Assembly (NCBI GenBank): GCA_024681435.1
Contig: JAILAV010000179.1
Location: forward strand, 1-42,821
Length of the DNA: 42,821 bases
DNA from: Pseudobutyrivibrio sp.
Lineage (GTDB): Bacteria; Bacillota; Clostridia; Lachnospirales; Lachnospiraceae
Direction of reading: 5' to 3'
Numbering within the stretch: position 1 is the stretch's first letter; every line of letters begins with the position of its first letter. Below are positions 25,155-31,723 of this stretch, piece by piece. Made by a program: the position numbers and the translations under genes. The notes under the pieces are model-generated. The model was not told where the DNA came from. It searched no databases and saw only the letters and a list, made by a program, of their open reading frames with translations.

Positions 25155-25169
25155 CATAAAAAAATAAAT

Positions 25170-25264
25170 GCAGAGTAGACTGTAAAGCGTTAAGTGCTAG
25201 GTGAACAGGGAGTTGTCACTTGGACGAAGGATTTAGCCGCGGTTTTATGGTCGCATCCCGCTGC
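25170..25264 (+). ncRNA. Tetrahydrofolate (THF, class I) riboswitch
   Basis: The leader matches the THF-I/folT aptamer: GAGTAGAC near the 5' side, GCGTTAAGTG, the loop GGTGAACAGGGAGTTGTCAC, then GGACGAAGG, CCGCGG and GCATCCCGCTGC closing on the first stem (GCAG/CTGC). The gene immediately downstream is folT, the classic target. Expected to bind reduced folates and lower folT expression when folate is plentiful. Confidence 0.93.
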
Positions 25265-25325
25265 TACATAGTGAGATTAACACCTCCAATGTAGACAAAG
25301 GATACTGCAAAGGAGGTGCTTTTTT
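25264..25325 (+). promoter_or_regulatory. Expression platform of the THF riboswitch (Shine-Dalgarno sequestration)
   Basis: CACCTCC (25281-25287) is the exact complement of GGAGGTG (25312-25318), which contains the folT ribosome-binding site. A competing hairpin, CTACAT (25264-25269) with ATGTAG (25289-25294), would trap CACCTCC in its loop and free the site. CTACAT abuts the riboswitch closing stem, giving a plausible switch. TTTTTT before the ATG would also allow termination. The on/off assignment is inference. Confidence 0.8.
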
Positions 25326-31176: not shown

Positions 31177-31210
31177 TTAACAGTCGCTTGAAGCAATAGC
31201 AACAAGCTCT

Positions 31211-31283
31211 GGGATCTTAGCTCAGCTGGGAGAGCATCTGCCTTACAAGCAGAGGGTCACAGGTTCGAGCCCTGTAGGTCCCA
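31211..31283 (+). tRNA. tRNA-Val (anticodon UAC)
   Basis: A 73-nt cloverleaf with acceptor GGGATCT/AGGTCCC, D-arm AGCTCAGCTGGGAGAGC, anticodon loop CTTACAA (TAC) and T-loop TTCGAGC. Discriminator A73; CCA not encoded. Confidence 0.96.
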
Positions 31284-31308
31284 TTTAGTTCGAAAATATT
31301 ACGTATAT

Positions 31309-31382
31309 GGCGAGATAGCTCAGTTGGCTAGAGCACGCGGTTCATACCCGCGGTGTCGAGGGTTCGAATCCCCCTCTCGCTA
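31309..31382 (+). tRNA. tRNA-Met (anticodon CAU), elongator type
   Basis: A 74-nt cloverleaf with acceptor GGCGAGA/TCTCGCT including the G1-U72 pair of Gram-positive elongator tRNA-Met, D-arm AGCTCAGTTGGCTAGAGC, anticodon loop TTCATAC (CAT) and T-loop TTCGAAT. It is not initiator-like, since it has no C1:A72 mismatch or GGG/CCC anticodon stem. A lysidine-type tRNA-Ile2 is less likely from overall similarity. Confidence 0.92.
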
Positions 31383-31439
31383 CGCAACAAGAAGGAATCC
31401 ATTCGGATTCTTTTTTTGTTGTGTAGCGGAGGGGGATTC
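31366..31439 (+). repeat. Inverted repeat made of the tRNA-Met 3' end and a downstream reverse copy
   Basis: The T-loop/acceptor 3' strand of tRNA-Met and its flank (31366-31390, ending CGCTACGCAACAA) reappears in reverse complement at 31416-31439 (TTGTTGTGTAGCG, then GAGGGGGATTC), with one deletion and one substitution. The terminator hairpin lies between the arms. Too close to perfect to be chance; origin unknown. Confidence 0.85.
31394..31417 (+). terminator. Terminator after tRNA-Met
   Basis: GAATCC and GGATTC form the core stem with a 4-base loop, followed by seven T. It lies in the centre of a much larger inverted repeat (31366-31439). Confidence 0.85.
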
Positions 31440-31709
31440 TATACTTAATCAAACCACGGGTCTCCCGCGACGACCAATCCGGTAGGCGAGAATTCGAATC
31501 ATTGCTTTCACTTGCAGTAACTGGCGGAGATCATAGTTGGATTTAGACTTTAAATCGACGTTTTCTTCGTACTGATGTTTTTCGATCGTTAAAGTAAACA
31601 TGATGCAAGAAAAATAATTATATTTAGGCATTTTTGCTATCAAAGACACATTTGTAACATATTTAGCTAATAGAATCTCAAACAAGTTACAAAACACGGC
31701 ACCAGATTT
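31440..31709. other. Intergenic region with a GC-richer patch; no supported gene
   Basis: After the reverse tRNA-Met copy comes a stretch (about 31456-31510) that is richer in GC than its surroundings. It contains CGGGTCTCCCG and a T-loop-like TTCGAATC, but no cloverleaf folds. Then ordinary AT-rich sequence leads to the PepSY gene. The minus-strand ORF 31449-31721 crosses the PepSY ribosome-binding site, and I do not accept it. Likely tRNA debris or the remnant of an old integration. Confidence 0.5.
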
Positions 31710-31723
31710 TGGAGGGTACAATT

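Follow-up and report, generated by a model that had tools for sequence, protein, structure and literature searches.

The near-perfect inverted repeat that follows the tRNA-Met gene in the Pseudobutyrivibrio DNA analysed here (a stretch of 42,821 nucleotides, referred to as the window) is probably the 5′ arm (S′) of a degraded, tRNA-targeting hairpin mini-element situated behind the tRNA gene and its intrinsic terminator (T). Elements of this kind, which appear to be mobile, are located behind certain tRNA genes of Lachnospirales from rumen and gut. The intact form consists of the tRNA, T, S′ as an antisense copy of the tRNA 3′ half, a fold-back at a tRNA hairpin, a segment X, a structured core, and a segment Y, arranged in this order, and T is frequently present once more after Y. 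Near the T loop, the sense tRNA 3′ half is divided into X and Y, which flank the core. S′ pairs with both of them, providing the upstream strands of helices that enclose the core; S′ matches the tRNA tail because X/Y and this tail are the same sequence. At tRNAs, the element would restore an intact tRNA in front and leave a displaced T-arm/acceptor fragment behind. The copy present in the window would be a fossil; the features of the locus are compiled in Table 1.

Table 1. Features of the tRNA-Met locus, given as positions in the window
Feature	Position	Strand	Basis
tRNA-Val(TAC), leading gene of the tRNA pair	31210..31284	+	ARAGORN; Rfam
tRNA-Met(CAT), host tRNA, whose 3′ half is the source sequence S	31309..31383	+	ARAGORN; Rfam, 61.6 bits
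Sense arm, made up of the tRNA-Met T-loop/acceptor strand and the 7-nt spacer GCAACAA	31366..31390	+	sequence
Intrinsic terminator T: hairpin and T-tract, inside the inverted repeat	31389..31416	+	terminator scan; fold
Well kept inverted copy S′, covering spacer and acceptor strand/T arm	31416..31439	-	sequence, blastn, fold
Decayed rest of S′, via T arm, variable loop, and anticodon arm	31440..31469	-	alignment to tRNA-Met antisense
Deletion junction, about 45 bp gone	31470..31471		alignment with relatives
Core tail CGACCAATCCGGTAGGCGAGA (consensus CGACCGAGCCGGCAGGCGAGA)	31471..31491	+	covariance model R1
Scrap of displaced sense tRNA T loop, ATTCGAATC (in relatives TCGAATCCCCCTCTCGC...)	31492..31500	+	sequence, alignment

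The arms of the repeat read GAATCCCCCTCTCGCTACGCAACAA and TTGTTGTGTAGCGGAGGGGGATTC, the reverse complement of the latter being GAATCCCCCTCCGCTACACAACAA. They are identical at 23 of 25 positions and differ by one 1-nt indel and one G/A exchange, which results in a G·U pair in RNA. The initial annotation had described this repeat together with the terminator nested in it, and direct reading, folding, and blastn all confirm the description. A blastn search of the locus against its own genome returned the inverted self-match at 31366–31439 (E = 4.8e-10), and the segment 31360–31450 folds at −57.2 kcal/mol (z = −12.0), with none of 200 shuffles as good. When a 91-nt fold was slid along both strands of the whole window, the locus ranked first with −57.3 kcal/mol, leading the runner-up (−34.6 kcal/mol) by 22 kcal/mol. 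A repeat search on the locus was empty, probably owing to the indel, which also renders an ungapped palindrome scan uninformative. The GC-containing stem followed by a T-tract that marks an intrinsic terminator is found at T, and this assignment applies to T only and not to S′. The open reading frames beside the locus encode rsmH, a PepSY protein, and products without assigned function; one of 90 amino acids on the minus strand (31449–31721) has no significant family in Pfam and was taken as spurious. Elsewhere in the window, a THF riboswitch is located at 25169–25265 (Rfam, 81.6 bits).

The positions initially given for the inverted copy were right, but S′ goes on past 31439 in decayed form. 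Over its whole length, it agrees with antisense tRNA-Met at 37 of 51 positions, which was not equalled in any of 1000 shuffles, and it ends in the palindrome CCACGGG-TCT-CCCGCG, the point of fold-back to the sense orientation. In relatives, the return to sense takes place at the anticodon-arm palindrome CCGCGGG-GCT-CCCGCG-ATGTCGAGGGG, and the sense tRNA 3′ half that follows is split near the T loop by a structured core of ~55 nt, resuming as TCGAATCCCCCTCTCGC. The ~45 bp missing from the window correspond to sense GTCGAGGGG plus the core helices P1/P2, which are present in the relatives G016 and G005. The remnant is matched by the covariance model R1 at 31457–31492 (20.1 bits, E = 0.0013) in a deletion form; that only the core tail is left in the window, at 20 bits, counts against the mini-element reading.

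For comparison, 22 loci from the same genus were considered together with loci from other genera, G000 denoting the window's own genome. The tRNA-Val/tRNA-Met pair is kept in the same-genus genomes and the tRNA-Met sequence is nearly constant across the genus, whereas the region after tRNA-Met varies. S′ is near perfect in G012, G014, G016, G019, G013, and the window, and clearly recognisable though degenerate in G022, G018, G005, G023, G001, and G009. Others show it in reduced form, and in G017, G015, and G024, it is undetectable at the tRNA-Met locus. In the better preserved relatives, the T arm and acceptor of the tRNA are present again at the end of the element, as a displaced direct copy, and in G005 (L035), the tRNA tail, the terminator, and the first part of S′ then occur again. 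Uniform conservation of copy and flank at ordinary spacing is, thus, not observed, and the suggestion in the initial annotation of an old integration or recombination at the tRNA 3′ end survives this comparison, with the insert read as a tRNA-derived mini-element. The inverted copy itself is no attachment (att) repeat, because att repeats are direct and the copy would be an inner arm of the element. Just downstream of the tRNA-Met element (L036, L037, L039), repeated units of the form CTGTCACAAGAGCAACGGAAAATGTGG...TTGTGACAG were observed in several relatives.

The order of tRNA, terminator, S′, and a sense half with core recurs at Met, Leu(CAG), Pro(CGG), and a second CAT tRNA; the same layout is found at tRNA-Met of another genus (L228), with two tandem units of 167 bp each, and tandem units are also present at L095, L209, and L073. 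At Gly(GCC), Lys(CTT), and Arg(ACG), the core is reversed. The tRNA-linked units are 158–286 bp long and free of genes, and S′ starts directly at the terminator in the Met, Leu, and one Pro locus. Alignments of S′ to its own tRNA gave p ≤ 0.015 at Met, Leu, Pro, Lys, the L102 Gly locus, and the L210/L228 loci, and p values of 0.006–0.03 at the Pseudobutyrivibrio Gly loci, these values being approximate as they derive from mononucleotide shuffles; in most loci with p ≤ 0.015, the own tRNA outscored the other tested tRNAs. At Gly and Lys, S′ is partial only, and at Arg, it is weak, with no significant alignment to the own tRNA, which counts against the mini-element reading. A survey of 88 regions downstream of tRNAs, covering the own genome, G009, and the element loci, revealed an S′ signal only at those tRNA kinds that bear the element, the exceptions being neighbouring tRNA genes and a single borderline Thr. 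The tRNA-Gly of the own genome possesses S′ and a copy of the tRNA tail with no core within 400 bp and with island-like sequence behind; this S′ without core likewise speaks against the mini-element. As a separate observation, larger integrated-island-like sequences with GGGTAC-type repeats abut tRNA-Gly tail copies at the tRNA-Gly loci L050, L068, L079, and L185; in L050 and L068, the displaced tRNA tail stands alone.

The core is 51–57 nt long and begins with P1 and with P2, a hairpin closed by TCC-AGT-GGA; P3, which is optional, comes next, and GACCGA, a short P4, and GAGA complete the motif. The left flanks of the core are mostly GARGG-like. Its helices covary strongly: in 11 hand-picked rows, 27 two-sided changes were counted versus 11 ± 2 in shuffles, and in 51 model hits, 171 cells had changed on both sides versus 53 ± 6 in shuffles, with 94.8% of all cells paired, the latter alignment being fitted to the covariance model and, hence, biased in its favour. 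P4 is weak in the covariation test. The core tail motif is contained in 26 of the 29 genus genomes, with 1 to 13 copies each, beside certain tRNAs and inside REP-like repeats. On the level of the order Lachnospirales, model R1 detected the core in 41 of 295 genomes from 25 genera, and in a phylum-wide sample of 300 genomes, in a single genome outside the order. None of the 4227 Rfam families matches the core, also when core-bearing loci were searched in sensitive mode; over these loci, Rfam returned only tRNA and chance-level microRNA/sRNA models far below their gathering scores. The literature search gave no match to the exact core sequence and nothing relevant among the described Lachnospiraceae repeats, and the core is absent from the plasmid collection. 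A hammerhead-like ribozyme identity was rejected by eye, the essential CUGAUGA/GAA residues being absent. Given the negative Rfam and literature searches, the core is an apparently unnamed mobile RNA/DNA motif. In the phage collection, one unannotated 7.4-kb human-gut scaffold (MT837213.1; L344, 6094–7420) ends in tRNA, terminator, and reversed core. Four more cores are present in G000, namely L208 (C29:3153–3209), L347 (C107:16505–16561), L350 (C90), and L352 (C49); one of them follows a tRNA-Arg tail, another is part of a REP, and two are located elsewhere with near-identical flanks.

Judged from filled and empty sites in the compared genomes, the core behaves as a mobile insertion, the evidence coming from REP and coding contexts at two non-tRNA loci and not from tRNA-Met. 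At one of them, a ~103-bp unit of REP plus core follows a conserved gene (L128/L312–L319), between the stop codon and the next start codon; it is present in G014, G041, G018, G007, and G044, while the orthologous sites in G023, G005, and G015 are empty. At the other (L212, G148:C6, 1501–1557, minus strand), a core of 51–53 nt interrupts a phage-type gene in its first codons, with an apparently open frame, and the phage-encoded relatives L232, L233, and L235 from IMG/VR lack it, making this a clean filled/empty pair. The notion that the core always enters a pre-existing hairpin was abandoned, since several non-tRNA sites are devoid of a hairpin in the reconstructed empty flank; the inverted-repeat setting is, thus, not universal.

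REP/BIME sequences are short, intergenic palindromic repeats that are present in many copies. The core resembles them in that it sits inside a REP-like repeat, the closing stem of which covaries (GCCTT/AAGG in 18 copies, GGCTT/AAGC in 19, mismatched in 4; in 37 of 41 copies, the partner strand thus matches the G/C swap). It differs in that the core constitutes an extra motif and that the tRNA-linked form has tRNA-derived arms. A short extragenic palindrome with many copies per genome is realised by the REP-plus-core form only, unlike the tRNA-Met form, which is a locus-specific copy. Rickettsia palindromic elements are small structured inserts found between genes and in coding sequence. Compared by description, the likeness lies in the occurrence of the core between genes and once, apparently in frame, in coding sequence; the core, however, is 51–57 nt long, is no plain palindrome, and belongs to a different taxon.

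Among the explanations that dispense with a hairpin mini-element, a remnant of an ordinary tyrosine-integrase island is unlikely. In such a remnant, the tRNA would be regenerated by attL, the displaced T-arm fragment would be attR, and the core would flank the att site as a conserved sequence of that island family. Genomic islands in tRNA genes, as compiled in Islander, are brought about by tyrosine integrases, and crossovers in the T loop are documented (PMC4383910). Such islands are defined by the combination of a regenerated tRNA with a displaced fragment; an intact tRNA is indeed present at one end of the element, and the displaced 3′ fragment is full in L035, L228, L211, and L095, with only ATTCGAATC remaining in the window. 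Tandem insertions and the T-loop position are further shared traits, and the larger island-like inserts at tRNA-Gly, in L050 and L068, abut the same sequences. Against an island stand the occurrence of the core in REP repeats and coding sequence away from any tRNA, the inverted S′ arm, which is foreign to att sites, and the gene-free tRNA units, which at 158–286 bp are too short to hold an integrase gene; nor was an integrase found at the locus in the window. A replication error pure and simple, in which the terminator hairpin acted as fold-back point, the tRNA tail was copied backwards by template switching, and no mobile element took part, is improbable, even if S′ begins at the terminator in the Met, Leu, and Pro loci named above and fold-back takes place at hairpins. 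Template switching generates quasi-palindromes and extends and perfects palindromes (PMC3820800), and the element resembles these in the outward growth of an inverted copy from an earlier hairpin. Yet, it is linked to a conserved core and a second sense copy, S′ is nearly restricted to core-bearing tRNA kinds, and it is found in several genera with the same core downstream, which an error alone would not bring along.

According to the initial annotation, the copy could pair with and block the tRNA 3′ half in read-through RNA. For a hairpin of this kind, sequestering the tRNA 3′ half and, thereby, limiting tRNA-Met or directing nuclease cleavage, speaks the very stable fold, which is in competition with the tRNA's T arm and acceptor. 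The terminator, however, lies between the arms, and S′/tRNA pairing is physically possible only in read-through RNA. Moreover, S′ ranges from exact to undetectable in close relatives with an almost constant tRNA, a pattern that is not expected from a function depending on S/S′ pairing. On these comparative grounds, regulation of the tRNA by S′ is unlikely, and a regulatory or RNA-processing hairpin as the explanation of the locus is highly improbable. A palindrome arisen by chance is practically negligible in view of its z-score, its lead over all other folds of the window, and its recurrence in relatives.

If the hairpin mini-element is the right reading, S′ and the second sense copy may have been made by fold-back copying, with template switching at the terminator and at the tRNA hairpins; alternatively, S′ could have been created when the element entered the T loop. 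The core may be moved by an enzyme supplied in trans, and the tRNA-linked copies may have moved as units. More tentatively, the core could represent an undescribed class of very small (51–57 nt) mobile structured elements of Lachnospirales, which would be inserted with precision behind a G-rich, GARGG-like motif and frequently within hairpins. At tRNAs, this insertion would be coupled to fold-back copying of the target, by which each host tRNA would gain a matched antisense tail while the functional tRNA is kept.

A striking palindrome behind a tRNA gene is, thus, explained as the probable fossil of a widespread structured mini-element, the motif of which occurs at tRNA tails, within REP repeats, and at least once inside a gene. 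For annotators, this serves as a warning that a tRNA-tail palindrome of this kind is not necessarily a regulatory structure. Should insertion and fold-back of the target indeed be coupled, this would be an uncommon means of invading an essential gene while keeping it functional.
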